Shown one piece after another: positions 2,501 to 17,810 of a stretch of 38,499 nucleotides of DNA (the stretch's first letter is position 1; every line of letters begins with the position of its first letter). The position numbers were made by a program, and so were the translations under genes. Below the pieces are notes generated by a model. The model saw nothing but the letters and a program-made list of their open reading frames with translations, was not told where the DNA came from and searched no databases. This stretch comes from Sedimentisphaerales bacterium (GTDB lineage Bacteria > Planctomycetota > Phycisphaerae > Sedimentisphaerales > Anaerohalosphaeraceae). The stretch is taken from positions 1 to 38,499 of the forward strand of contig JAFGPC010000214.1 of assembly GCA_016926155.1 (NCBI GenBank), in the 5' to 3' direction.

Positions 2501-3283
2501 CTAAATCCGTCCATCAGATACTTTTTCATTATGATACATTAATGCCGTTAGCCTTTGACGTAAAACGTGAAACATAAAGAGGGGGCTATCCAGATTTCGA
2601 CGCCACATGCGGCGAGGCTCCAGTAACAAACGATATGCCCATTCGAGTCCCGAAGATCGGATCCACCTGGGCGCCCAGGAAACGTTTCCTGAATGGAAGT
2701 CAAAAGCGGCTCCAACTCCAATCATAGCCGAAGAAGTAATTTTGCCCCAATGATGGAGCATCCATTTTTCCTGTTTCGGAGCCCCTAAACCCACCCAGAC
2801 AATATCCGGCTTTGTCGAATTGATTATTTCAATCGTAAGAAAATCCTCCTTCGGACTCAGTTCCCGGAACGGGGGACAGTAGGTTCCAGCAACACGTAGG
2901 CCGTCATATTTTTCCTGTAATCGATCCGCCAAAAGGCCGGCCACTCCTCTTTGGCCTCCATAGAAAAAATGCCGTAATCCATATTTCCGGCCATGATCGC
3001 AAAGATACAGCATCAGGCCCGGTCCCGTAACTCGTCTGCATCTGGGATAACCTAAAAGATATGCGGCTACAATGATACCTATTCCATCCGGAAGAGTCAG
3101 CGCAGCGTCTCGGTTTGCATTTCGCATATCTGTTTCTCGAAAAGACAAGAAAATGCTGTGCGGATTGGTTAAGGTAATGTAGTATTTTGTTTTCGACAAA
3201 CGCCATCCAAGAATTCTTTGCAGAACTTCATCGTATTCGATGAAATCAAAATTCGTGTTTATAATTTTATATCGAATGGCCAT
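2501..3283 (-). CDS. WecG/TagA/CpsF family glycosyltransferase (GT26)
   Basis: GT26 enzymes add an N-acetylhexosamine (ManNAc or a uronic derivative) to the lipid-linked first sugar made by a WecA/TagO enzyme, at the inner face of the membrane. The family blocks are clear: ITLTNPHSIFLS near the N-terminus, LTLPDGIGI, RVTGPGLM, FFYGGQRGVA, then VWVGLGAPKQEKWM, and at the end GVGAAFDFHSGNVSWAPRW with the usual RLLLEPRRMWRR tail. A longer frame opens at 3457, but its first 58 residues do not look like the family. ATG 3283 begins directly before the conserved core, with a TAGGATGG sequence about 10 bases upstream; it gives 260 aa, normal for the family. It would act directly after the WecA-like enzyme at 12174-13709. 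It lies after the NarL-type regulator, separated by about 230 bases. Confidence 0.88.
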   Translation of the reverse strand: MAIRYKIINTNFDFIEYDEVLQRILGWRLSKTKYYITLTNPHSIFLSFRETDMRNANRDAALTLPDGIGIIVAAYLLGYPRCRRVTGPGLMLYLCDHGRKYGLRHFFYGGQRGVAGLLADRLQEKYDGLRVAGTYCPPFRELSPKEDFLTIEIINSTKPDIVWVGLGAPKQEKWMLHHWGKITSSAMIGVGAAFDFHSGNVSWAPRWIRSSGLEWAYRLLLEPRRMWRRNLDSPLFMFHVLRQRLTALMYHNEKVSDGRI

Positions 3284-3516
3284 ACAATCAATCCATCCTA
3301 ATTTAAACAAACCGAAATGCCTCTTTTCTATCGTCCGGATAACAGGAACGCGTAATAAGGCAATTCCTAATTCTACAGATGGGGGAAATTCCTGAGAGAT
3401 AGGATTTTTTCCAAAAGATCGGCTCGCTTTTCCGAATGGACACAGAGATAGGCACATATAAACAAGCAGTAAAAAAAGCTTGTGAAATTTCTGAAGAAAT
3501 GAGTCCGGCTTATATC

Positions 3517-4182
3517 TTAGTAAGACGTCAAGCCTTCTCGAATCGCATATTTGGTCAAATCAGCCAGGTTTGTGATTCCCAGCTTCTCCATTGTTTTTCG
3601 TTTTCTCGCATCAATGGTTTTAGGACTTCGTGAAAAATGCAAAGCCACCTGTCCGATTGTCATTCCCTCCGTAAGCAATTGGATCATCTCCCTTTCTTCC
3701 GAAGTGAGACTATCGTCTGTATTGAGCCTGCTACATGACGTGAACGCACATTCTTCCAACATTACTTGTCGAGTATACATGCAACAATAAATGTCGCCGG
3801 AATGAACGGCTTGAACCGCCGCAATCAGTTCAGAAAACAGGGATTGCTTGGCTACCACTCCCGTAATTCCCAATTTGCGTGCTTTTACGATCGCGCCAGG
3901 ACTGATTTCTGCGCTGAGGACCAACGTCCGAACCGCCGGATTTCGTTCTCGTATGAGACGAGCGGTTTCAAAGCCATCCATGTCAGGCATTTTGAGATCC
4001 AGGACCACAACGTCCGGATTGCACTTGGGAATTTTTTCAATCGCTTCTTGCCCCGTACCAGCCTCCCCTACCAATTGAAAGGTATTATGACGATTCATAA
4101 GAACTCGAAGACCTTCACGAACTATAGCGTGATCATCCACGATAAACACACGGATCGTCTCTTGCGGTATACCCGACGCCAT
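3517..4182 (-). CDS. NarL/FixJ-type response regulator
   Basis: A two-domain transcription regulator of 221 aa. Residues 10-125 form a receiver domain: acidic pair D16/D17 (FIVDDH), phosphate-accepting D62 (VVLDLKMPDMDG), S90 and K112. Residues about 150-215 form a LuxR-type helix-turn-helix (LTSEEREMIQLLTEG, then SRSPKTIDARKRKTMEKLG). Unusually, a run of cysteines (CCMYTRQVMLEECAFTSC) sits in the linker. No histidine kinase gene is intact anywhere in the window, so it is an orphan here. It lies between the last gene of the exopolysaccharide operon and the WecG-like gene and has its own strong promoter, which suggests it regulates this locus; that is inference. The ATG follows AGGATGAGGA. Confidence 0.9.
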   Translation of the reverse strand: MASGIPQETIRVFIVDDHAIVREGLRVLMNRHNTFQLVGEAGTGQEAIEKIPKCNPDVVVLDLKMPDMDGFETARLIRERNPAVRTLVLSAEISPGAIVKARKLGITGVVAKQSLFSELIAAVQAVHSGDIYCCMYTRQVMLEECAFTSCSRLNTDDSLTSEEREMIQLLTEGMTIGQVALHFSRSPKTIDARKRKTMEKLGITNLADLTKYAIREGLTSY

Positions 4183-4431: not shown

Positions 4432-5667
4432 CTAACTTACGGAAGCAACCGGTATCGGTGAAGATTCAGGAACATTCTCAATATCCGGTTCTTGCCAGAC
4501 GGGGCGGGTATGCCCCATTTCATCTATCGCCTGGGCATAGACCTCCATAAGATGGGAATAATATTTTGCAGGTGAATATCGCTGCCGGGCCACCATGCTG
4601 GCTTGTTGTCCCAATTGAGAGATAAGGTCCGACCTATTCCACAGGTCATTAATTATTGAAGCAAGTTCTTCGGCATTGCCCGGCTCAAAAAGAAAACCGG
4701 TTTTTCCTTTTTCTACAATTTCGGGCAATCCGCCAATTTTTGAACAAATAACAGGCTTGCCACGGCTCATAGCCTCAAGGATCGCAGAGGGAAAACCTTC
4801 AAAACAAGTACTGCATAGAACAACAAGTCTGGCATTCGCAAAAAACGTATCAAGTCGCGGCCCTTGCAGGAAATCCATGAATTGGACATTTGTGCCTGCG
4901 AGTTGTTTGAGCCGATTCGTTTCCGGGCCCGAACCGGCTATACGGATCGGGATATCCGGCAACAAACTCGCCGCATTTATCAAGGTATCAAGCCCTTTTT
5001 CTCGGCTGATTCTTCCAACATAAGCTACATAGCTGCCTGTTTCAGAAGTGATGGGATGTTCCTCGATCATATTTGGAAGAACACGAATACGCGCGGGATC
5101 ATATCCATTTTCAACGAGACATCGTTTTTGAAACTCCGTCTGTGCGATATAAACATTTACGTTATTCCTAAACCACCCGTATTTCCGGGCCATGTAATTC
5201 CGTAAGGCATATCCTGTACTTTTCCATAAAGATTTTTCACAGTTCCTCAGCACACATTGCCATTCATGCCCCCCAGAACACTTTTGACATACCTTTCCCC
5301 GGGTCATGAACAATCCATTGGGACATATGAGACGGTAGTTGGCACAGCGCATGACAATGGGGATATGTTTAAGATGAGCTGCCACAAGAACGGACGGGGA
5401 GATCAACGGATATACATTTTGTACCTGGATCAAATCGGGTTTATACCGCGAGATGAATTCATTCATTTCAAACGCTCTTGACGGCGAATAAATGCCTGCA
5501 AAAAAGGCATGCGCCTTATGGACCAGAGATTTTCCAATCTCTTGACTGCTTCGAAAAAAATGGAACACTTCGTGTCCATAGGATTGAAGGAGTCCGGAAA
5601 TGCGTCCCAACATCATTTCTTCTCCGCTGAAAGAAGCGTAAGAGTTATGAACCAATGCAATTCTCAT
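4432..5667 (-). CDS. Family 4 glycosyltransferase
   Basis: A GT-B fold retaining transferase that would add a sugar to the lipid-linked repeat unit in the cytoplasm. The N-terminal Rossmann half starts RIALVHNSYASFSGEEMM. The C-terminal half has VAYVGRISREKGLDTLI, IAGSGPE and the nucleotide-sugar EX7E motif in EGFPSAILEAMSRGKPVICS. A cysteine cluster between residues about 120 and 150 (CPNGLF, CQKCSGG, CVLRNC) is a recurrent trait of a GT4 subgroup. I chose ATG 5667 rather than the upstream ATG 5706: it overlaps the polymerase stop as ATGA and gives a native family N-terminus (411 aa). Last gene of the overlapping operon. Donor and acceptor sugars cannot be deduced. Confidence 0.9.
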   Translation of the reverse strand: MRIALVHNSYASFSGEEMMLGRISGLLQSYGHEVFHFFRSSQEIGKSLVHKAHAFFAGIYSPSRAFEMNEFISRYKPDLIQVQNVYPLISPSVLVAAHLKHIPIVMRCANYRLICPNGLFMTRGKVCQKCSGGHEWQCVLRNCEKSLWKSTGYALRNYMARKYGWFRNNVNVYIAQTEFQKRCLVENGYDPARIRVLPNMIEEHPITSETGSYVAYVGRISREKGLDTLINAASLLPDIPIRIAGSGPETNRLKQLAGTNVQFMDFLQGPRLDTFFANARLVVLCSTCFEGFPSAILEAMSRGKPVICSKIGGLPEIVEKGKTGFLFEPGNAEELASIINDLWNRSDLISQLGQQASMVARQRYSPAKYYSHLMEVYAQAIDEMGHTRPVWQEPDIENVPESSPIPVASVS

Positions 5668-6902
5668 CGGGAAATATCTCCGGATTTTTCTATGGCAATC
5701 GCACATCCAATCGTGGCAAATACGGCGTTTCCAATGTATGCGATATACATCAGGCTGTTTCCACTAATACCCAGAAGGAGCATGACAAGAATACCATTGA
5801 GCGACACATGAAGTAGCCAACTCCTTCCTTCTTTCTTCCAGAAAGAACCTCGTATATTCAGATCTCTGATCATGAGAAGTATAGGAAAACACAGCAGCAG
5901 GCCTCCCAGGAGTCCATAGTCAAATACTATGCGAATATATTCATTATGCGGGTGAGACCACTTACCGGCACCAAATATATTCTGGCCGAACGCAACTGAA
6001 GCCGTACTCCCATCACCCAACCAAACATTCTCAATCCCACCAACATAAATCGGCCACGCATTGAGTCGTCCCGATAAATTCACTTTGTCCGGATTTAATG
6101 TAAGGACATCCTGCAAGGTTCCTTGGCCATCATGAAATATGCTTTCCTGCACCGGAGTAGAGGAGAAGAGAATGAATCCGCATAATACGATAAAGACTGC
6201 TGCAAGAAACCGTCCACGCAAAGACAAAGATCCGTATCCGATTATCCACATAAGGGGAAGAAGTATGATAGGCATTCGTGATTCCGTCACGAACATGATC
6301 ATAACGCATATTGCATATTTGACAAGTGCGGATACAGGATGAAACGGAACCTCCGCCATCGCCGCGATCCCAAGAAGAGTAAACGTCATTGCAATTCCGG
6401 CCGTACTATACCAGGGCGTCAGAGCTTGAAAGGATCCGGCATGAATTGTTGCAAGGACATACAAGAGAACGGAACCGTAAAACATAATTCGAAAACATCG
6501 AAAAATCATCCTGCATGTAACCATTGTAAAGCTGGATGTAATCCACAGGCACAGAACAGGCGTAATAAAAATAAAGAACCGTTGTGCCGCATCGGATTGG
6601 TGGAAATCTGTTTTTAATGCCATCCAGCCGATCCATGGCAGCCAGGAAAACCATTTCGTTCGTACCGGATTCATCAGGCGGTTTGGCAGCAAAAGCAAAC
6701 CGGAGACAATAAGAACAATCACCCACGACCACCCTCGAAATGCAAATCCGGCAAATCGAATTTCTCCAACGGCCGCCATGAGAGTACAAAGTGCAATAAG
6801 GTAGAGAAATACCTGTTCCATAGAAAATGCGCCACAAGTCCATCGTATACGAGGAGGTGTGCTTTCCGCTTTGTTGTGAAATCTGGAGAAGGCAAGAATC
6901 AT
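5664..6902 (-). CDS. O-antigen ligase/polymerase family membrane protein (Wzy-like)
   Basis: An integral membrane protein of 412 aa with about ten hydrophobic segments. It carries the O-antigen polymerase/ligase signature in the large periplasmic loop before the final segments: SGRLNAWPIYVGGI, then KWSHPHNEYIRIVFDYGLLGG. It would join repeat units on the outer face of the inner membrane. Given Wzx and Wzc genes in the same operon I call it the Wzy polymerase rather than a ligase. The ATG overlaps the previous stop by four bases; an alternative start is M28 (MEQVFLYLIAL), just before the first membrane segment, but it has no clear ribosome site. Its own stop overlaps the next gene. Confidence 0.85.
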   Translation of the reverse strand: MILAFSRFHNKAESTPPRIRWTCGAFSMEQVFLYLIALCTLMAAVGEIRFAGFAFRGWSWVIVLIVSGLLLLPNRLMNPVRTKWFSWLPWIGWMALKTDFHQSDAAQRFFIFITPVLCLWITSSFTMVTCRMIFRCFRIMFYGSVLLYVLATIHAGSFQALTPWYSTAGIAMTFTLLGIAAMAEVPFHPVSALVKYAICVMIMFVTESRMPIILLPLMWIIGYGSLSLRGRFLAAVFIVLCGFILFSSTPVQESIFHDGQGTLQDVLTLNPDKVNLSGRLNAWPIYVGGIENVWLGDGSTASVAFGQNIFGAGKWSHPHNEYIRIVFDYGLLGGLLLCFPILLMIRDLNIRGSFWKKEGRSWLLHVSLNGILVMLLLGISGNSLMYIAYIGNAVFATIGCAIAIEKSGDISR

Positions 6903-8209
6903 AGTGTACTCGCAGACTTTTCTAATTCCATAGAAGTAATGTCGTGTTCACCCCATTCGTTTAAAGGAGTCCCATAAGTATTAAGGTAGGCCTGTCGGAT
7001 TTTAAAGGCTGCTTTATCCCAAGTATACTGTCTTGCTTTTTGAAGTGCGCCGCGACTGAGCATTTCAATCTGCGAGGGGTGTGTCAAAAGATGCTGTATG
7101 GCCGATGACAAGTCATGCGTGATCTGCGAACAGGATGTGATTGGAATTTTGATTCCACACTGAGGATCGATGATATCCGAGAATCCGCAATGATCAAGGC
7201 ATACGATGGGTAATCCCCATGAAAGGGCCTGCATTACGGTTGTGGAAGTAGCCTCAAGAAGACTGGTAAAGACAAGCACGTCACAATTGCTGAGCAAGGT
7301 CTGGATTTCTGCTTCACAGAGCCAGCCATACCAGCGACACATATCCGCTACGCCATATTTTTCAGCGCTCTTTTTCCATCGTGTCTGACATGGCCCATCC
7401 CCGGCAATGTGCACAGTTATCTGATCCTTTCGTCCCAATCCCCCCAAGGCTCGAAGGAGAATCGGAAGGGCTTTACTGGCAACACAGCGACCCACCCAGG
7501 CAACATTCAGCTTTCGTTTTCCATCATATTGATGTACTTCAGCAGAATGCTCTTCACAAGCCTGCTCATGCACGACATCGCCGGTAATCCCCCATGCACG
7601 CCGAAAAGAGCGCCGGTCCCATTCGGTTTGTGGAATAAGAAGATTGGTATACCAAGCCGCTTGACGTATTCTCGGACTGCGATACAATTGCATACGCGTA
7701 ATGAGGTTTCGTGTCATATGACTCCACCAATCCGTCACATGCATAAAGGGGAAAAGTCGCCATGGGATTTCATTAGTTCCGCCGGTCGGTCCCCAGACAA
7801 ACGGCAAACCGAGTTTCCACAAATATCCCGGCTCACGAAACGTGTCGGCACGTAAATGGTGTACTAAATCAAATCCAACTTGAAAGTGTAATTCTTTCGC
7901 ATAATGATAAGCTTGCCTCAGCCAGGAACGATAGGCCAGCATTTCTCGGACGGGAACGGTCGGCCTCTTTCCATGTTTCCGCGACACCGCTTTTCGGGGA
8001 ATATAATGGAAATGTATTCCACTCGATAATTTGGGATGGCTCCGTACATATTGGAGAATATCCGCCGCATACTGTGTTTGTTCTGTAAGAATCCATAAGT
8101 CAAACCATTGTGAAAGACGCATCAATATCTGCCATGCCGAACCGGGAACATGAGACTTGCCCGGACTGCATTCATAAGCTTCAACCAGTACTCGTAATCG
8201 ACGAGTCAT
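6899..8209 (-). CDS. Family 4 glycosyltransferase
   Basis: A second GT-B transferase, 436 aa. It opens RRLRVLVEAYECSPGKSH, typical of a GT4 subgroup with a glycine/serine-rich donor loop. The C-terminal half shows NVAWVGRCVASKALPILL, IAGDGP and the EX7E region EATSTTVMQALSWGLPIVCL. The frame is open to ATG 8230, but ATG 8209 has GAGAGAAAAGATA directly upstream and starts next to the conserved beta strand, so it is preferred. It follows the methyltransferase after 34 bases and its stop overlaps the Wzy-like start as ATGA. Sugar specificity unknown. Confidence 0.88.
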   Translation of the reverse strand: MTRRLRVLVEAYECSPGKSHVPGSAWQILMRLSQWFDLWILTEQTQYAADILQYVRSHPKLSSGIHFHYIPRKAVSRKHGKRPTVPVREMLAYRSWLRQAYHYAKELHFQVGFDLVHHLRADTFREPGYLWKLGLPFVWGPTGGTNEIPWRLFPFMHVTDWWSHMTRNLITRMQLYRSPRIRQAAWYTNLLIPQTEWDRRSFRRAWGITGDVVHEQACEEHSAEVHQYDGKRKLNVAWVGRCVASKALPILLRALGGLGRKDQITVHIAGDGPCQTRWKKSAEKYGVADMCRWYGWLCEAEIQTLLSNCDVLVFTSLLEATSTTVMQALSWGLPIVCLDHCGFSDIIDPQCGIKIPITSCSQITHDLSSAIQHLLTHPSQIEMLSRGALQKARQYTWDKAAFKIRQAYLNTYGTPLNEWGEHDITSMELEKSASTL

Positions 8210-8243
8210 TATCTTTTCTCTCTTAACCATTCAAGTGGTCTTA

Positions 8244-9032
8244 TCAAACGCTAAGCGATACACATGATTTCTCGTAGGCATGCTCTTTGTTATCAGACAA
8301 ATGGCCGACTTTGCGACAAATATAGATGTTGTTTTGACAATGTGTTTTTCCCATCCCAAGATGATTGGCGGCTTTATCGAACATGTTATGAATCCAGAAG
8401 GGCAGGACCATGGGATGATTGTCGTACCCGGGCAGAAAGCCCAATGAATACACTTGTTCTATCCGAAACCGGGTTGATTGAGCCAGATCGTCTACTTCCT
8501 GATTTGTCATACATGGGGGTCTTTTCCCGAGTGCTCTGGCAAGACGAAACAGAATACTTGAAGCGTTACGATGGTTATTGAAAACGAGGATTCCATCTGT
8601 GGACAGATGCCACGCCAGAGCCTCTATGACCTCGACACGAAGTTCATGCTCGGCATTCGGAAAGAAGCGGAACGCCGTGATCAAGTCAAATTTGCGTCCT
8701 GCCAGAACATCATTTCTTGTGATATCCTCCTGAATGATTTCCGCATTGGGTACTTTTCTTCGACATTGCCCCAGCATACTCTCGGAAACATCCACTCCGG
8801 TACTTTCATGAACGTACTCACTCAGAAACTCCAGAATACGACCCGTACCACATGCAAAATCGAGATGCCTTATCGGACGGCCGAAACAATATTTTTGAAG
8901 GACCTCCAGTAATATCTTCTTTTCACCGTGCCATAAATAACGTCTCCATGCAAATTCTCTGAAGCGACGGTCATATTGCGCACCTTTACTGGAAGCTGTA
9001 TGTGAATTGCGATAAGTAAGACCTTCCTTCAT
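8244..9032 (-). CDS. SAM-dependent class I methyltransferase
   Basis: 262 aa. Motif I for S-adenosylmethionine binding is HLDFACGTGRILEFL (residues 57-70), followed by the acidic residue of strand 2 in GVDVSESMLGQC (D81) and a motif II/III-like region IIQEDITRNDVL. The C-terminal half is less conserved and probably sets the substrate. The ATG has AGGAG eight bases upstream and overlaps the stop of the preceding kinase gene by four bases. Its place between sugar transferases and two kinase-fold genes suggests it methylates the growing glycan, its phosphate, or a nucleotide sugar. That is inference; the sequence alone does not give the acceptor. Confidence 0.85.
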   Translation of the reverse strand: MKEGLTYRNSHTASSKGAQYDRRFREFAWRRYLWHGEKKILLEVLQKYCFGRPIRHLDFACGTGRILEFLSEYVHESTGVDVSESMLGQCRRKVPNAEIIQEDITRNDVLAGRKFDLITAFRFFPNAEHELRVEVIEALAWHLSTDGILVFNNHRNASSILFRLARALGKRPPCMTNQEVDDLAQSTRFRIEQVYSLGFLPGYDNHPMVLPFWIHNMFDKAANHLGMGKTHCQNNIYICRKVGHLSDNKEHAYEKSCVSLSV

Positions 9033-9892
9033 GTTGTAATTCTCCTGTTCTTTTCGTTTCTGCTATGTATATAGCTATAGTGCATCTGCTTTGGATCGAC
9101 ACAGAAGAGCTTCTTATGCCATTTCTTATTTATTCGACTGACAGCAAAGAGCGGCTGGACAAGACAACTCTGGATAAAGGAAATTATTTTTCGTTGTCTC
9201 CATTGTTTTTTCATGATCGCATGATTCAGAAGAACCAAGAATGTGAAGAGTTTGGTAAAATCAACTACGATTCCCGTTTGATCACAATATCCTTGCAAGA
9301 AAACATTCATTCGATCAGGATATCTTTGCATGGCTTTGATCATGCAGGACTGTTGAAGAAGGAGAGAGCGTACAAAGTGGGCCAAATCGAGATATCGGCT
9401 TGCAATACAACATTGGAAAGGCAGGGCCGGTCCATTCGACCAATCGAGGATGATGATCCTTTTATCGGTCGAACGACAGCCTATATTGGTTGTATTGAAG
9501 TCGCCATGTACAATGACCTGGTCTTCCGGCCGTCCACACCAGGGTTTGGGAGCTATCGATTTAATCTTAGAAGATGGTTTCATTTGTAAATGAATCGTTC
9601 CAAGAGCCCTTCCTACCTTCCAGAGTAACTCCAGATCTTGATGGGTATTATTGATGTAGATCGAAAGGGGAATTAATCCGTTTATCCGTTCAAGCTTGAG
9701 TAAACCCGACACCGAATCCCAATCCATGACTTCCGGCGTGTAGAACCAATTTGTCCTTCGAGACAACTGGTTTGCCTGATTGGTTAAATAAAACTCCATG
9801 GCGATCCGGGATGGATCGACATGTTTAACATAATAAGGCGACGACGCCTTGTCTGCTAGCATGTAAGATTCCTGCGGAATAACCATAATCAC
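9029..9892 (-). CDS. APH-fold phosphotransferase, second of a pair
   Basis: 287 aa, protein-kinase-like aminoglycoside phosphotransferase (APH) fold. The catalytic loop is VIVHGDFNTTNIG (catalytic D131, N136) and the metal-binding motif is IIILDWSNG (D150). Upstream features such as SPYYVKHVDP and GRALGTIHLQM match the N-lobe and hinge. It is clearly paralogous to the preceding gene: same order of motifs and a similar LDLAHFVRSLL segment. The start is GTG 9892, which overlaps the previous stop as GTGA with GGAG just upstream; ATG 9886 is the alternative. Inside an exopolysaccharide operon the likely substrate is a sugar or glycan, not an antibiotic; the exact acceptor is unknown. Confidence 0.8.
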   Translation of the reverse strand: MIMVIPQESYMLADKASSPYYVKHVDPSRIAMEFYLTNQANQLSRRTNWFYTPEVMDWDSVSGLLKLERINGLIPLSIYINNTHQDLELLWKVGRALGTIHLQMKPSSKIKSIAPKPWCGRPEDQVIVHGDFNTTNIGCRSTDKRIIILDWSNGPALPFQCCIASRYLDLAHFVRSLLLQQSCMIKAMQRYPDRMNVFLQGYCDQTGIVVDFTKLFTFLVLLNHAIMKKQWRQRKIISFIQSCLVQPLFAVSRINKKWHKKLFCVDPKQMHYSYIHSRNEKNRRITT

Positions 9893-10791
9893 GATACTCC
9901 TGCAAATCGTGACGATGGATTCGTCTTCTCATAATCTTTCTCTTGATTTTCATGAGAATGGTTTCCGGCAGGATATAAACCATGTGATCCATAAAATGAG
10001 GTGCCCTCGTGCCATTTCAGGAAGAGGATTTTACATACAAGACAGGCTGTAAAACTCATTATTGCTTTGATGTATTGTCTGCGTTTTATCTGAATTCGTA
10101 CACGTTCTTTCATCATTCGCAATAAATGGGATTGGAGAAATGAGTGATCGAGCGTCCTGCCGATTTCATATTCATATCCATAAAGGAACGCCGTCGTACG
10201 TCGATGAAAGTGAACCAAGCCATTCCAGATTGAAGGAGACTGACAAAGTAAACTACGAATGAATTTACAAATATCGAAATAACGATTTCCGGTAGTTTTT
10301 CCTCGAGCGGCCACACCCGCACTTGCCCAATCCAGAATCACAATCTGTTCGATTGATGGACGAAAAAAAACATTGTTAATATTGAAATCACCATGAAGAC
10401 ACACTAAATCCTCGGACTTGCAGGGCCAGGGTAATGAAATGGGAATAACCAGAGAGGAAGGCAATTTCATCCGTTCATGAATGGCGGCGAGAGCCCGTCC
10501 GGCCTGAAAAAGAAGTCCCAGAGAACCTTTTCCTGCAGAAAACCGTTCCCTGATAGATTCCATGTCATCGATTCGCTGGAGTTCAATGCTGCCCGTTGTT
10601 TCATCCTCGCCGAGCACCTCGGGAACAGAAAAAAGCTTGCTTTTCTCTCCGACTTTTCGCGCAATTTTTGTGACTTCCGATTCGATATGGACAAATCGTG
10701 GATCGGTATATTTAACGACAGAGTGCGGTTTATAAGAAACTTGGATCGCTCCTGAAGAGGCATATTTTCTGCGGAAAAATCGACGGATCAT
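9889..10791 (-). CDS. APH-fold phosphotransferase, first of a pair
   Basis: 300 aa. Catalytic loop LVCLHGDFNINNVFF (catalytic D135, N140) and metal-binding IVILDWASAG (D154). K27 in SVVKYTDP and E37/E39 fit the ATP-binding lysine and helix C acid, though I could not align them. All residues needed for phosphotransfer appear present. The ATG overlaps the Wzx stop as ATGA, and the stop overlaps the next kinase. Two adjacent diverged copies suggest duplication and specialisation on two substrates. The family includes aminoglycoside, choline, homoserine and sugar kinases, so no specific name is given. Confidence 0.8.
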   Translation of the reverse strand: MIRRFFRRKYASSGAIQVSYKPHSVVKYTDPRFVHIESEVTKIARKVGEKSKLFSVPEVLGEDETTGSIELQRIDDMESIRERFSAGKGSLGLLFQAGRALAAIHERMKLPSSLVIPISLPWPCKSEDLVCLHGDFNINNVFFRPSIEQIVILDWASAGVAARGKTTGNRYFDICKFIRSLLCQSPSIWNGLVHFHRRTTAFLYGYEYEIGRTLDHSFLQSHLLRMMKERVRIQIKRRQYIKAIMSFTACLVCKILFLKWHEGTSFYGSHGLYPAGNHSHENQEKDYEKTNPSSRFAGVS

Positions 10792-12170
10792 TTTTCTTCC
10801 CCTGAATACTTAAGTTTTGTTGAAATCTCCTTACACAGCAGGAATGTCAGGCCGATCGCAAAGCTGATCAGATGGTTTACAGCCACGGCAGTCGTTGCAC
10901 CGACTACTCCCCACAAGGGTACGATAAGCAGACCCAACGCTAGACAGCCTATGGATGACGTAATACCCATCACGGTCAAAGCCTTTGGTTGATGTGTAGC
11001 TGCCAGGAATGAACTGATCGGCACATTGGCGCTCTTTGCAGCCATAGCGGTAGAAAGTGTTATCATCGCCATCGTGCTGGTTTCATATTTGCCGCTATAG
11101 ACCACTTGAACAAACCAGTAACCTGCAAAACTCAAACTTACGATATAGCCTAGCCCTGCCAGCCCAAAAATGCCTACAAGCGTCAGCGTTATTCTGCGCG
11201 TGGCGTCCAGGCCTTTCCATCGCATTTGTCGAGTCAATTTGGGCGTTAAGTATCCTGAAGACGCCTGCAATGCCGGCCGCACCATACATACAATGGTTGT
11301 TAGGGCTGCTACCGTCGCTACGGTTTCACAATTCCAGTAGTGAAGTGTCAACCAGGGTAAAAATCGTATCCCGACAGCATTGGCACATGTTGCAAGCAGG
11401 ATCCAGCGCCCAAATCGCCAATTTCCCGCCCAATCTGAAAAAAAAGCCGGCCAATGAATTGCAAATGGACTCTTTCGAAGCACAAGAAATCCGTACATTA
11501 GGCAGCCCAAAGAGTGAGTTACGCAGGTTGTTAAAATCGTCAGTTGACCTATTGTATACAGGATTAGTAACGCCAGAACCAGAATAAGGCCGATCATGGA
11601 GCTGAGAATCAAATGGTCTCGATAACGCATTTGAGCCAGGAGAACACAACGCAGAATCGTACGAAAATGACTGCAGACAGCAAGGATTCCGAAGAGAAAA
11701 ACCAGGTTGCTATACGGTCTTTCCATTGCATTAAGAACAAGTGCCGAAAAAGCAGAACCGAGGAAAAATAGGATACTTATAGCCAGATGCTGCAGGAGTG
11801 TATTTCCAAGGTATTGTTGGCCATGTATATCTTCCTTTCCGGAGGAAAGCACGGTGTATGGAACCGCGATTATACTACGCTGTATAACTTCAGTTACAAA
11901 GACAAGGCTCATGCCCAAAGCATAAAAACCATATTGAACTTTCGAAATAGCTCGTGCCAACAGAATACTGGTCAACAATGTACAAAGGCTGTAGATGGCT
12001 TGTTCAAGCACTACCAATCCGCCTTCCCGCCATACGTGCAAAGATTTCTTGAGAACAAAAATGGCTTGCTGGAATGAGATCAGCCGACGAAGAAAACTTT
12101 GGATCCATGATTCGGATGTATGGATCGTCATTTCTCGAGGATCGACTTGACAGGTTCCTGTTTTTTGCAT
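10788..12170 (-). CDS. Polysaccharide flippase (Wzx-like, MOP superfamily)
   Basis: 460 aa with about twelve hydrophobic segments and short loops. The first segments include the family-like LEQAIYSLCTLLTSILLARAIS and the pattern VQYGFYALGMSLVFV. It should move undecaprenyl-linked repeat units from the cytoplasmic to the periplasmic face. The gene begins three bases after the WecA-like stop, and its own stop overlaps the first kinase gene. The N-terminus before the first membrane segment (about 45 residues) is longer than usual. Family assignment rests on pattern and context; wzx genes share little sequence. Confidence 0.8.
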   Translation of the reverse strand: MQKTGTCQVDPREMTIHTSESWIQSFLRRLISFQQAIFVLKKSLHVWREGGLVVLEQAIYSLCTLLTSILLARAISKVQYGFYALGMSLVFVTEVIQRSIIAVPYTVLSSGKEDIHGQQYLGNTLLQHLAISILFFLGSAFSALVLNAMERPYSNLVFLFGILAVCSHFRTILRCVLLAQMRYRDHLILSSMIGLILVLALLILYTIGQLTILTTCVTHSLGCLMYGFLVLRKSPFAIHWPAFFSDWAGNWRFGRWILLATCANAVGIRFLPWLTLHYWNCETVATVAALTTIVCMVRPALQASSGYLTPKLTRQMRWKGLDATRRITLTLVGIFGLAGLGYIVSLSFAGYWFVQVVYSGKYETSTMAMITLSTAMAAKSANVPISSFLAATHQPKALTVMGITSSIGCLALGLLIVPLWGVVGATTAVAVNHLISFAIGLTFLLCKEISTKLKYSGEEK

Positions 12171-12173
12171 CTT

Positions 12174-13709
12174 CTAACCTGCCAATCCCACAACACAAGG
12201 CTCATCTTGTAGTTCCGTGCGTGGATCGTACGAAGAGGAATCATGGGGTATGATTTGATTTTCTTGAATGGAGGTAAACCGATATTGTTCGATAAGTCGG
12301 GAAAATAGGGTGACGCAACGGGCGCCCTGCTCGAGTGATTCGCCTATGATAATTTTTACCGAAATCTGTAAGCTAGAAGCGGCACGGGCATCCTGGATTG
12401 GCACCATTAAAGTAATATAGGCATGGAGAGGAGTTTTCTGCTTCGGATGGATCCATGTCAGTGTCAAAGGTGTCCCATCTCGGCGTTCGGTCGTGAGAGT
12501 AAGTTCGGCAAAATTCATATATTGAGCCGCTCGACATACGGCATTCCACCAATCCTGAAAAGTACAGACGCGGCGAAAATCGAGTTCCACTTCTTCAAAA
12601 CGAGCGATTTCCTCTTTCACCTGCATTGCCCGTGCATAATTTTGCCTGAGACCGGCCAGTGTTTCACGAAGGCGAATAGCTCCGACCTTACGAAAAATGG
12701 TAACATACATGATGCCAAAAGCTACGAAGGAAAGGAGTATCCCTTCAAAGGAGACGAGGAACATGATGGCTGATATCCCAATGCCCGTTAAAGATGTCAG
12801 CCAACATAACAAAACAGCTTGACGATGATGGAATCCGATTGCCAGAAGTCGATGGTGAAAATGGCTGCGGTCGGGTGAAAATATCGATCGTCGCTCTATG
12901 AAACGTCGCAACATGCAGAAAAGCATATCAAAAAGCGGCAGTCCCAATACCGCCAAGGGTAAAATAAAGTGTGCAAATGTCCGCGCGCGGGCCATACATA
13001 GGGTCGAACCGCCGGCTAGTAAAAAACCGAGTAACAGGCTACCACAGTCACCCAGAAATATGCGAGCCGGATGAAAATTGAAGAACAAAAATCCGGTGGC
13101 TGCGCCGGTTATCGTAATCATCAGTATTGCAAGAGGTATGTTTCCGCAATAGAATGATAGAATTCCCAGAGATATTGCAGCAATACATACAAGGCCGCTT
13201 ACCAGTCCATCCAGACCGTCACTTAAATTGACAGCATTAGTGATGCCGACAATCCATAGCAAAGTGACCGGACAGGAAATCCAATACAGTTTTAGTGAAA
13301 GTTGTTCGGTAAGGGGTATTTCCGTAATCCGAACACCCATCCCGTAGATAGCGGATGCGATGATAAGCTGAAGGATAAACTTTGTCCTTGCCCGGAGACC
13401 GTTAATGTCGTCCCAGAGTCCGATCATAAATATAAGAAGGCTTCCAAGGAGTATATGATAAATATCTACTTTGGCGGATGTCCGTAAAGCATGTGAAGGA
13501 ATCTGGCATGTATGGATCATCCAGACAGATAAAATCATAATAGCCATAAATAGAGAGATGCCTCCAACGCGAGGAACAGGATTTGTGTGAATCTTGCGAT
13601 TATCCGGATCGTCGTAAAGCCTCAAACGATGAGCGATATGAATGATCAAAGGTGTAATACATAGAACCAAACCAAGGGCCAGGACATAGGCAAACAGAAA
13701 TGTGCTCAT
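12174..13709 (-). CDS. WecA/MraY-type glycosyl-1-phosphate transferase with extra C-terminal domain
   Basis: The enzyme loads the first sugar-1-phosphate (usually GlcNAc-1-P) on undecaprenyl phosphate, starting the polymer. Residues 1-340 are the membrane core: DDPDNRKIH (33-41), IGLWDDINGLR with the paired acids 100-101, NLSDGLDGL (161-169), IFLGDCGSLLLGF with D221, and DRSHFHHRL (280-288). Usual members end near residue 340-360. Here about 165 further residues follow, with a helical linker and a soluble alpha/beta region (TLTTERRDGTPLTLTWIH, then SLQISVKIIIGESLEQGA) that I cannot assign. The ATG overlaps the Wzc-like stop as ATGA. A separate WecG-like transferase (2501-3283) fits as the next enzyme. 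Confidence 0.88.
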   Translation of the reverse strand: MSTFLFAYVLALGLVLCITPLIIHIAHRLRLYDDPDNRKIHTNPVPRVGGISLFMAIMILSVWMIHTCQIPSHALRTSAKVDIYHILLGSLLIFMIGLWDDINGLRARTKFILQLIIASAIYGMGVRITEIPLTEQLSLKLYWISCPVTLLWIVGITNAVNLSDGLDGLVSGLVCIAAISLGILSFYCGNIPLAILMITITGAATGFLFFNFHPARIFLGDCGSLLLGFLLAGGSTLCMARARTFAHFILPLAVLGLPLFDMLFCMLRRFIERRSIFSPDRSHFHHRLLAIGFHHRQAVLLCWLTSLTGIGISAIMFLVSFEGILLSFVAFGIMYVTIFRKVGAIRLRETLAGLRQNYARAMQVKEEIARFEEVELDFRRVCTFQDWWNAVCRAAQYMNFAELTLTTERRDGTPLTLTWIHPKQKTPLHAYITLMVPIQDARAASSLQISVKIIIGESLEQGARCVTLFSRLIEQYRFTSIQENQIIPHDSSSYDPRTELQDEPCVVGLAG

Positions 13710-15925
13710 ACCCCAACCCCTTGTGATTCAATAGGATCCGATTGCATTTCCTCTTGTATGTCATGAGTTGGGACGGAAAACGGCAAAGCAAGACCTCGGC
13801 GCCCACTATAAGAGATTGTCTGCCCCAATCGGCCGCCTAGTTGAAATCGTTGTTTGGAATTGACTACGAGTCCGATGATCGTTGCCCCCACACTCTCCAA
13901 ATCCTTCTGAGCCTGCATTAGTGTATCGCACAGCAGAGCCTTCCCATCGACGGTTACAATAACACCGTTGGCAGCAGCGGACAGAATCATAGCGTCCGAT
14001 GACATCAAGACGGAAGGACCATCAAGGATCAGATGGTCATATTGACAGGTAAGAATTCGCAAGATGGTTAGAAAATGTCCTTCTCCCAACATGCGGGCCG
14101 AATCGACACAAGTTTGTCCTCGATCCATAAAAAAGAATCCGTCAATAACGGTGGGTGTTGTCGCCTTCGGAATGGAACAACGCTTGAAAACAACATCGGT
14201 TATACCGGGACAATTTTCCAGTCCAAGAAGAGAAGCAATGGAAGGATTACGAAAATTCATTTCGATCAAAAGGACTCGCCTGCCAAGCAGAGCCAGCGAA
14301 GCGGCTAGATTACTTGCCACGGTTGTTTTCCCCTGCCCGTCCTCGGGAGAGGTAACGAGAATGACCTGATTTTGCTCTTTGTCCATACCAAATGCCAGTG
14401 CAGCACATGCCTTTCGAAGAGAACGTGCCATAATGCCATCCGGATCGGTATAGACAGCCCATGTTTTATCGGGTCGAAAGAGTCGCTTTGGTAAGGAGGG
14501 AATGACGGCAAGCACTGGCGTCCTAAACAACACCGCCAATTCCTGAAGTGATCGAAATCGCGGATGAATGAAATCTCGCATAAAGGTTGTCAGGAAACCA
14601 AGGAAAATGCCTCCGGCAAGAGCAATCCCGGCCACCTTTTCTTTCTGCGGCGCGGCAGGTCTGAGACTTGGTCTTGCTTTTTCCAATACATGAATATCCA
14701 GCCCTCCGGCTCCGTCGGAAATATCTACTTCCTTGATACGTTCCGTAAGTAGATCACATACTTTTTTGGCTTGTTGATATTCCGCTTCCAGAAGTGTGTA
14801 TTGGGCAATTTTCTCATTTGCTTCGGAGGTCAATTTTTCCTGCTCATGATAATGATCCAGAATTTTCTGTTCTTTCTGTCGGGCAACATTCAATGATTGT
14901 TCCGCTAAAGCAATCTGAGACAGAACAAATTGTTGATCCAGTTGTTCGATTTGTCGAAAAAGAACTGTGATCTGATCTTCCAATGCTTGTACGGAGGGGT
15001 GTTCCGGTGTCATCACACGCAGAAGTCGTTCGAGCTGCAATTGAAGCTGATTGACTTTCGCCCGCAGGATGGATGCCTCATCGGCGGAAGGATTGAGTAT
15101 GATGTTTGAGCGTTGAGCATGAATATATTGACGAATCAGAGAGGGATCTTCCAGCATGGCTTTTTGGATCGCATAATGGGCTTCTGCTTCCAGAGTATCG
15201 ATTTGCGCTTGCGTCAGAACATCGCCAAAACGTGCCAATCGCTCCGAGATAGGATTACCGGCCGAGCCATCGAATATCAGATGACTATTGGCTCGTTTGA
15301 ACTCCGTTACCACTTCCATCGTATATTTCAGGTCCGAATCCCGCTGGGCCTTTTCTTCCTTGAGGATTCGCAGAAGCTCGGCCGAAGTGGCCTTTTGATG
15401 GTTGGCTTGATACGCGATATAGGCATCAATAACGGCATTAACTACGTGGGCCGACTCTTCAGGATTGGTCGCCATGAAAGATAAACGAATGATTTCATCC
15501 TGTTTTCCTACCTTTGCAGTAAGGTTTTTCAGGAGATATTCCAGAGCGTCCGTTCTTTGTACAACGTGATGCAAAGAGGATGTATCCTCTTCCAGGCGAG
15601 CGCGTTGTATGATCGGTTCCAGAACCGTTCTAGATCGAAGAATTTCTGCCTGCGTGTAAAGATAATTCTTGGATCGTTTTTCCGTACTGTTCTCACCAAG
15701 AACCGACGGAACCTCCTGTTTCACAAAAATACATGCCGTACTGCAATACCGAGGTACAGCCATGTGAAGATAAACGGCACAAGCCAGAATAGAGAATGTA
15801 ATAAAAAAAAGAAACCACCATCGTCCTTCCCAAAGAGTCTGAATCAGCAATTGTCCCGTTGTGTGTACGGCATCGATTTCAGAGGGGTATGTCACTTGCG
15901 AATTGGACGAATTTGCCGTTGCCAT
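13706..15925 (-). CDS. Wzc-like chain-length regulator with BY-kinase-type domain
   Basis: 739 aa. An N-terminal Wzz region has a first membrane segment at about 36-55, a long periplasmic coiled-coil stretch and a second membrane segment at about 430-450. A C-terminal P-loop domain follows: Walker A SPEDGQGKTT (about 523-532) and Walker B LILDGP (about 632). The Walker A' motif, normally LLIDxDxR, reads LLIEMNFRNP, so both aspartates are replaced. The C-terminus has a single tyrosine (YSGRRG) instead of a tyrosine cluster. It may bind ATP but autophosphorylate poorly or not at all. With Wza it would control polymer length and export through the envelope. The start is ATG 15925, 29 bases after the Wza-like stop, with no strong ribosome site. 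Confidence 0.9.
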   Translation of the reverse strand: MATANSSNSQVTYPSEIDAVHTTGQLLIQTLWEGRWWFLFFITFSILACAVYLHMAVPRYCSTACIFVKQEVPSVLGENSTEKRSKNYLYTQAEILRSRTVLEPIIQRARLEEDTSSLHHVVQRTDALEYLLKNLTAKVGKQDEIIRLSFMATNPEESAHVVNAVIDAYIAYQANHQKATSAELLRILKEEKAQRDSDLKYTMEVVTEFKRANSHLIFDGSAGNPISERLARFGDVLTQAQIDTLEAEAHYAIQKAMLEDPSLIRQYIHAQRSNIILNPSADEASILRAKVNQLQLQLERLLRVMTPEHPSVQALEDQITVLFRQIEQLDQQFVLSQIALAEQSLNVARQKEQKILDHYHEQEKLTSEANEKIAQYTLLEAEYQQAKKVCDLLTERIKEVDISDGAGGLDIHVLEKARPSLRPAAPQKEKVAGIALAGGIFLGFLTTFMRDFIHPRFRSLQELAVLFRTPVLAVIPSLPKRLFRPDKTWAVYTDPDGIMARSLRKACAALAFGMDKEQNQVILVTSPEDGQGKTTVASNLAASLALLGRRVLLIEMNFRNPSIASLLGLENCPGITDVVFKRCSIPKATTPTVIDGFFFMDRGQTCVDSARMLGEGHFLTILRILTCQYDHLILDGPSVLMSSDAMILSAAANGVIVTVDGKALLCDTLMQAQKDLESVGATIIGLVVNSKQRFQLGGRLGQTISYSGRRGLALPFSVPTHDIQEEMQSDPIESQGVGV

Positions 15926-15954: not shown

Positions 15955-17109
15955 TTATTGTTGATACTGCAGGGCCACGCCGGCCCGTAAACTGAGAATA
16001 TCGGACAACAGGAGATTTCTTCGCGTACGGTCCGTATGTTCCACGGCAAGTACATCACCGGGTTTTATAAAAATATTCATCGCCGAAAGGAAATCCTGCC
16101 CGGCTTTTATGCTGAATACGGCATCGACAACATCCCCTGCGGGAGTCGGACGATATACATGAACGTATTGGGGGTCCGCCGTATCATTCACGCCTCCTGC
16201 AACGGCCAGAGCCACCGGCAAATTATAGTTGGCTTCCGGAGGATAGGAGAATGTTCCCGGTTTTTTCACCAATCCGATCACAGTAAAAACCTGTTCTCCG
16301 ATCCGTTCTACTTCGATCACATCTCCTTCCTTGAGTTGGATATCCGCGAAAGGAATGTTTAATCCTTTTACAGGGAGCACAAGCGACTTGAAAACAGAAT
16401 GTGAACCGACTCCCACAATGCTTGTCAATTCGCCCATACTTCGAGACGTTTCTACTTGGCCCACAGATTCGGAATGGTTATTTCGAACCGAGTCTTTACG
16501 AATGACATGAATCACAGTTGCCCCGTCGTCCACAATCCCTCCCGCTTGCATAAGAATCGAGACGAGTGTCATTTGATCTTTTGGAAGCATATAATGCCCG
16601 GGCTTGTTTATGGCGCCGGTTATGGTTACCCGTTCTGTTTTGTATTGAGCAATCCGGCTGATCACCGGAGGCGGTAAAAATACATACTGGGGGCAATACG
16701 CATCCTGTATAACATGCTCGATCTGGGGCAGAGTCAATCCCACCACCGACACATCCCCTGCAATAGGGAGACGAATCGTACCGTCGTCCTGAACACGGCA
16801 CAACAGGATTCGCATTTCTTCAATCTGTGCCGGATCGCTGAATTCCCCTGAAGACATGTGCAGCATGGATGGCATTTGCAATTCGAGTACATCTCCCGGT
16901 ACAACATGATACTCGCCTTTGGGGCAAGCCGCCTGGAACAATAATTCAGAATCCAGCTTCAACGAGGGAGAGCCCGCCTGAATGAATGCGGCAAGAGATT
17001 GTTCGGATACGGCTTTGGGAACGGCAGAACAACCGGCCCAAAATACCGCAACGGCAAAGTAGGACACCCATACCAATGCCGTTAGTCCTTGTTTTGTTTT
17101 TTCTTTCAT
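15955..17109 (-). CDS. Wza-like polysaccharide export lipoprotein
   Basis: 384 aa. The signal peptide ends in a lipobox-like FWAGC, which would lipidate C27. A Poly_export domain (about 65-150) begins EYHVVPGDVLELQMP. Two SLBB domains follow: VTITGAINKPGHYMLP (161-205) and FTVIGLVKKPGTFSYPP (about 275-320). The family forms the outer-membrane channel for exported polysaccharide and works with the Wzc-like protein encoded next. It lies 72 bases after the CheY-like gene. No good ribosome site precedes the ATG. The length matches the family. Confidence 0.9.
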   Translation of the reverse strand: MKEKTKQGLTALVWVSYFAVAVFWAGCSAVPKAVSEQSLAAFIQAGSPSLKLDSELLFQAACPKGEYHVVPGDVLELQMPSMLHMSSGEFSDPAQIEEMRILLCRVQDDGTIRLPIAGDVSVVGLTLPQIEHVIQDAYCPQYVFLPPPVISRIAQYKTERVTITGAINKPGHYMLPKDQMTLVSILMQAGGIVDDGATVIHVIRKDSVRNNHSESVGQVETSRSMGELTSIVGVGSHSVFKSLVLPVKGLNIPFADIQLKEGDVIEVERIGEQVFTVIGLVKKPGTFSYPPEANYNLPVALAVAGGVNDTADPQYVHVYRPTPAGDVVDAVFSIKAGQDFLSAMNIFIKPGDVLAVEHTDRTRRNLLLSDILSLRAGVALQYQQ

Positions 17110-17181: not shown

Positions 17182-17562
17182 CTACTGCGACAATAATCCG
17201 GCAAGCTTGCCTGCTATTATCTTTGGCGTAAACGGCTTCGTTACATATTCGTCGGCCCCGTTTGCAATTGCGTTTTTGATAATGTCATCCGAACTTTCTG
17301 TGGACACCAAAACGATTTTCATATGGTTCCATTCCGGATTTGCTCGAGCCTGTTCAAGGAATTCCAAACCGTTCATTTCGGGCATATTGATGTCGCACAA
17401 TATGATATCAACAGGACTTTGTTGCAACTTAACTAGCGCCTCTTGCCCGTTTCCCGCCTCCTCCATGTCTTCACTGATAGGCAAGTCGGCCTGACGAATT
17501 GTTTTCATTATAATTTTTCGCATCGTTGCCGAATCATCCACTACCATAATTGTATATGCCAT
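17182..17562 (-). CDS. CheY-like single-domain response regulator
   Basis: 126 aa, one receiver domain and nothing else. The key residues sit at the classic CheY positions: D9/D10 (VVDDSATMRK), phospho-acceptor D57 (IILCDINMPEMNG), T88 with S87 (VLVSTES) and K109 (YVTKPF). It should signal by binding another protein rather than DNA. A longer frame starts at TTG 17574, but ATG 17562 has GGAG six bases upstream and is preferred. It is the first gene reading into wza-wzc, so it may report on or control polymer export. Its cognate kinase is not in the window, apart from a kinase remnant at 17991-18116 on the other strand. Confidence 0.9.
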   Translation of the reverse strand: MAYTIMVVDDSATMRKIIMKTIRQADLPISEDMEEAGNGQEALVKLQQSPVDIILCDINMPEMNGLEFLEQARANPEWNHMKIVLVSTESSDDIIKNAIANGADEYVTKPFTPKIIAGKLAGLLSQ

Positions 17563-17810
17563 GTCCTGCTCCAATATCTTTTTTGTCTAAACCGACCAAG
17601 GGAGAGATTACATTCGGCCACAGGGCACATTTATACACAAAGAATTTCTTGTTTAATGACATTCCTTCTGAAGTACCCGACCACTCGAAAATACTCGACC
17701 AAGAATGGTTCGATCTTGACGAGGAAGAACCTTGCCCCTTGTGGAAAATCTTCCCTATGTCCAACCAAGGATAATCCTATTTTAAGCCTGTTCCCCAAAA
17801 ATTGGTCCAG

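Follow-up and report, generated by a model that had tools for sequence, protein, structure and literature searches.

The closest described counterparts of the locus reported here are enzymes that join a kinase and a methyltransferase (MT) in glycan assembly. WbdD, known from Escherichia coli O9a and Klebsiella pneumoniae O3, phosphorylates and then methylates the non-reducing end, which both halts polymerisation and provides the mark that the exporter recognises (PMC3482155); it is a single fused MT-kinase, with a tyrosine-kinase-like kinase and a coiled-coil ruler, and belongs to an ABC-transporter pathway. ORF6 of K. pneumoniae O7 is a second methylphosphate terminator, for which methylphosphate was observed in vitro and whose N-terminal part combines an MT with an APH-like kinase best matched, remotely (DALI Z 7.4), by the APH-fold AmiN (PMC11231755); this MT-kinase is fused to a coiled coil and to glycosyltransferase (GT) modules, and is ABC dependent. 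WbdD is thus not the one known precedent that a preliminary description of our locus had taken it to be.

The locus lies in a 38,499-nt stretch of DNA from a Sedimentisphaerales bacterium (contig JAFGPC010000214.1), which we refer to as the window. As in WbdD, a kinase and a class I MT are encoded together, but the module differs from WbdD in that its parts are separate or, in some relatives, fused kinase-MT proteins, it has no ruler, and it occurs in Wzx/Wzy rather than Wzm/Wzt loci; its kinase is APH-like, judging by the best fold matches. In the window, kinase 1 (k1, 9889..10791, 300 aa), kinase 2 (k2, 9029..9892, 287 aa, GTG start) and the MT (8244..9032, 262 aa) are encoded on the minus strand, placed between a Wzx-like flippase and GT and Wzy genes. 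The start/stop junctions Wzx/k1, k1/k2 and k2/MT each overlap by 4 bases, and a gap of 13 bases separates the MT from the GT4 gene downstream. As paralogues, the two kinases share 32% identity over 243 aa (E 2e-38), and both carry HGDFNxxN (HGDFNINN in k1, HGDFNTTN in k2), ILDW, the beta-3 Lys and the later Asp, so that the preliminary description was right to see two adjacent, catalytically complete APH-like kinases overlapping each other and a SAM methyltransferase by four bases.

The kinases show the hallmarks of the APH superfamily (the Lys/Glu pair, the HxD....N and D metal-site motifs, and the APH fold), and thus have the fold and catalytic residues common to the APH/Bud32/LxmK superfamily, their own context being glycan assembly. 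Their Pfam APH matches, at 22.9 and 19.1 bits, fall just under the gathering score of 23.2; no dedicated model for the kinase was found in Pfam or NCBIfam, profile matches to APH(3') and Bud32 were weak, and searches of PDB sequences with the kinase and the MT returned generic kinases and methyltransferases only. Because the catalytic Asp, the metal-site Asn and two further Asp are kept in 50 of 50 kinase homologues, with the Lys and Glu in about 90%, both window kinases are probably active. The MT matches Pfam Methyltransf_25 at 1.2e-13, has the Rossmann MT fold and glycine-rich motif I of class I SAM methyltransferases, and contains the conserved stretches LDFACGTGRI, ITAFRFFxNA and VFNNH.

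The surrounding operon reads, in order, Wza, Wzc, a WecA-like polyprenyl-phosphate sugar-1-P transferase (PGT), flippase, k1, k2, MT, GT4, Wzy_C, GT4, a LuxR-type regulator and WecG. Specifically, on the minus strand we found a Wza-like outer-membrane export protein (15955..17109), a Wzc-like co-polymerase (13706..15925), the WecA-like transferase predicted to initiate the repeat unit (12174..13709), the Wzx-like flippase (10788..12170), a GT4 glycosyltransferase directly 3′ of the MT (6899..8230), a Wzy-type polymerase with Wzy_C and 10 predicted TM segments (5664..6902), a second GT4 glycosyltransferase (4432..5706) and a WecG/TagA-type glycosyltransferase (2501..3457). Pfam does not match the window flippase, whose assignment comes from a local profile built on Pfam-positive flippases, together with synteny; with this assignment, PGT, flippase, Wzy, Wzc and Wza all occur together, as expected of a Wzx/Wzy-dependent operon and as the preliminary description had placed the cassette. 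The defective Wzc kinase motif it pointed out is also real: Walker A (GQGKTT) is intact, whereas Walker A′ is degenerate, reading LLIEMNFR without its Asp residues, and the protein has lost its C-terminal Tyr cluster. In the WecA-like transferase (511 aa) the Pfam transferase domain stops at about residue 234; the extended C-terminal part beyond it recurs in a relative (L009, 509 aa). Response regulators, one of LuxR type, are encoded within the operon (3517-4182) and at its start (17182-17574), and a DUF2779 protein lies downstream of it (177-1694).

The AF2 model of k1 (pLDDT 87.1, pTM 0.85) matched the folds of LxmK (Z 19.0), maltokinase (18.3), AmiN (17.8) and NahK (17.1), with homoserine kinase and glucosamine kinase also near, which places its fold close to sugar and small-molecule kinases. 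These best matches are APH-type; WbdD is not among the matches listed, an absence that does not speak for a different fold. With a VIA Z of 17.8 to AmiN, k1 stands apart from the ORF6-O7 kinase, which resembles AmiN only remotely, a contrast drawn from fold scores. The AF2 model of the MT (pLDDT 91.8, pTM 0.88) matched CmoM (Z 24.4), DhpI (20.4) and TylM1 (19.9), with phosphoethanolamine MTase, TM1389 and the sugar N-methyltransferase CalS10 also near. DhpI methylates a phosphonate oxygen (PMC6278250), and among the MT matches its chemistry would be the nearest to forming a phosphate methyl ester. It shares the class I MT fold with our MT (VIA Z 20.4, 186 residues, rmsd 2.5), but its substrate is a small-molecule phosphonate and many other MTs score similarly, making the likeness only suggestive.

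Profiles were needed to find relatives of the kinases: a single-kinase sequence search returned nothing beyond the window in 39 genomes of the family and 392 of the phylum, whereas a two-kinase profile search in the class gave four more genomes. One of them, a Sedimentisphaerales MAG of a different family (L009/L013), keeps the gene order of the window all the way from PGT to WecG, with k1-k2-MT and the GT4 gene next to the MT, so that the triplet does recur in another planctomycete polysaccharide locus, a check that the preliminary description had proposed; its refuting condition, a triplet not kept together in relatives, does not hold. In this MAG the flippase orthologue and k1 form a single 764-aa ORF (L009:9022-11316), a flippase-APH-like kinase fusion for which we found no earlier description in the literature and which was seen in this single MAG only. 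In the kinase tree, k1 of the window pairs with k1 of L013 (support 100/99) and k2 with k2 (89/65); because each copy groups with its counterpart, the kinases must have duplicated before the two families diverged. The other three class genomes encode a single kinase beside the MT; in one of them (L016) the two are fused in frame until a frameshift interrupts the MT. Complete triplets are rare, the majority of homologous loci encoding one kinase only. The syntenic relative retains an intact Wzc (LVFDCDLR, IIIDSPP and a Tyr-rich tail) alongside the same cassette, and we therefore rejected the idea that the cassette compensates for or replaces a defective Wzc.

Scanning contigs with the two-kinase alignment gave no relatives, whereas the MT alignment did. 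An MT profile scan of about 85,000 species returned 184 relatives, and we worked with the best 80; the scan relied on exact MT peptides and is therefore biased toward close relatives. Across the window and these best 80 of 184 relatives, a kinase of the family adjoins the MT in 48 loci, which span about a dozen phyla: the order is kinase-MT in 22 and MT-kinase in 22, while the two are fused in 2 (L027, 519 aa; L087, 475 aa) and on opposite strands in 2. The unfused same-strand pairs are tightly spaced, with 37 of the 41 measured overlapping or lying within 60 nt. Long kinase ORFs in L052 and L030 have an upstream open frame and were not taken as fusions. The relatives come, almost all as MAGs, from taxa that include Planctomycetota, Lentisphaerota, Pseudomonadota, Balneolota, Bacteroidota, Thermodesulfobacteriota, Myxococcota, Armatimonadota, Chloroflexota, Omnitrophota, Krumholzibacteriota, Raymondiibacteriota, Patescibacteria and a Pacearchaeota archaeon. 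A converse search by kinase in 387 class genomes found whole-domain matches in 7, two of them with strongly diverged kinases, and the MT was adjacent in all 7. Together with the fusions and the operon in another family, the 48 adjacent loci support the view of kinase and MT as a conserved functional unit in Wzx/Wzy-type glycan loci.

The pairing is not universal. About 12 further MT loci, among the 81 that comprise the window and the best 80 of 184 relatives, carry a more remote APH-like kinase no more than two genes away, and about 21 of the 81 lack any kinase in that range, so that the MT can act without the kinase. In three Planctomycetaceae loci that lack the kinase (L034:2095-4029, L038:8052-9905 and L043:7882-9846), the MT follows a conserved protein of 617-654 aa with C-terminal TPRs. 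Near one kinase-MT pair we observed an STT3/PglB-type oligosaccharyltransferase (L060:672-2750), a neighbour suggesting that the module can also serve protein glycosylation.

Of 45 loci, 31 have a flippase as direct neighbour of the pair, where random placement among the same genes would give 7.7 ± 2.3. After one planctomycete clade was collapsed to a single representative, the flippase was adjacent in 22 of 36 loci against 5.3 ± 2.0 expected, and none of 20,000 random runs reached 22 of 36, in a test whose gene calls were simple ORF picks and whose loci are not fully independent. Pfam independently bears out these assignments, with Polysacc_synt_3 in 18, Polysacc_synt in 17 and Wzy_C in 14 of the 46 polytopic neighbours, and Wzx and Wzy are named in the genome of an isolate, Ornatilinea apprima (L032). 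No ABC ATPase motif was detected in the 48 loci with adjacent kinase and MT, from the window and the best 80 of 184 relatives.

The genes with their intact catalytic residues, the conserved pairing, the fusions and the flippase adjacency are direct observations, and the reading we prefer, to which we give an even chance, is that of a cytoplasmic module tied to the flippase step, which would phosphorylate and then probably O-methylate the lipid-linked repeat unit before it is flipped. Going beyond the gene content, we infer the substrate, the order of the reactions and the methylation of phosphate rather than sugar, as follows. The kinase would use ATP to phosphorylate a hydroxyl of the undecaprenyl-PP-linked repeat unit, and the MT would then most likely O-methylate that phosphate to give a methyl phosphodiester, after which the adjacent Wzx would flip the modified unit and Wzy would polymerise it. 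In the window and its syntenic relative, the duplicated active kinases would each phosphorylate a different position or a different sugar. If the analogy with the WbdD mark, which its exporter needs, extends this far, the modification may also license the unit for flipping. A broader form of this idea, in which the (methyl)phosphate mark of the phylum-spanning module would be an export licence read by the partner Wzx, and thereby a Wzx/Wzy counterpart of the WbdD mark, rests on the same analogy, and we offer it as speculation that is unlikely to hold. Against the preferred reading, the closest fold matches of the MT, CmoM and TM1389, are not known to methylate phosphate, and DhpI (20.4) has no clear lead over TylM1 (19.9); the flippase adjacency could also reflect operon layout rather than a shared substrate, and the MT loci that have no kinase nearby and the single MAG behind the flippase-kinase fusion weigh against it as well.

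The nearness of the MT model to the sugar N-methyltransferases TylM1 and CalS10, and the MT loci that have no kinase, would also fit two independent decorations of the same lipid-linked unit, with the kinase phosphorylating one position and the MT O- or N-methylating another sugar. We regard this as unlikely, as the pair is kept over about a dozen phyla, in both orders and as fusions, which suggests sequential chemistry at one site.

The preliminary description had proposed a phosphorylated and/or methylated repeat unit or a chain cap, and the modified glycan remains in our preferred reading while the cap and its part in length control are weakened. A cap in the manner of WbdD or ORF6-O7, with methylphosphate on the terminal sugar setting chain length or marking the distal end, is suggested by the same two activities in those enzymes and by the degenerate Wzc of the window, but we consider it improbable on four counts. 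With Wzy, chains are extended from the reducing terminus (PMC12004945), and therefore a cap at the non-reducing end would concern the first unit only and cannot stop growth as it does with WbdD; no coiled-coil ruler fits, judging by protein lengths, as the kinases and the MT are compact single domains of 240-300 aa; no ABC transporter was found in the 48 loci from the window and the best 80 of 184 relatives; and the relative with an intact Wzc retains the cassette.

Synthesis of precursors is a further alternative, in which the kinase would make a sugar-1-phosphate, as NahK and maltokinase do, and the MT would methylate a nucleotide sugar ahead of glycosyl transfer. The nearest kinase folds do include NahK, glucosamine kinase and maltokinase, and TylM1 is near the MT, but the neighbour test points to the flippase, which is also found fused to a kinase, so that we hold this reading to be quite doubtful. 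That these are antibiotic or metabolite resistance kinases, or protein kinases, placed by chance in exopolysaccharide loci, as the weak APH(3') and Bud32 matches might suggest, is highly improbable given an association with MT, flippase and polymerase that is conserved across phyla.

We found no description of a kinase-MT module of this kind in the literature, as covered by open-licence papers, and the preferred reading of a flippase-linked module would make it probably an undescribed route by which polysaccharide building blocks receive phosphate and methyl groups ahead of export. In the literature we found, all documented cases of methylphosphate marks on bacterial glycans belong to ABC-transporter pathways. 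With the pair conserved beside flippases across about a dozen phyla, many uncharacterised extracellular polymers would carry phosphate or methylphosphate, and the pair would offer a direct experimental handle on how Wzx recognises a finished repeat unit.
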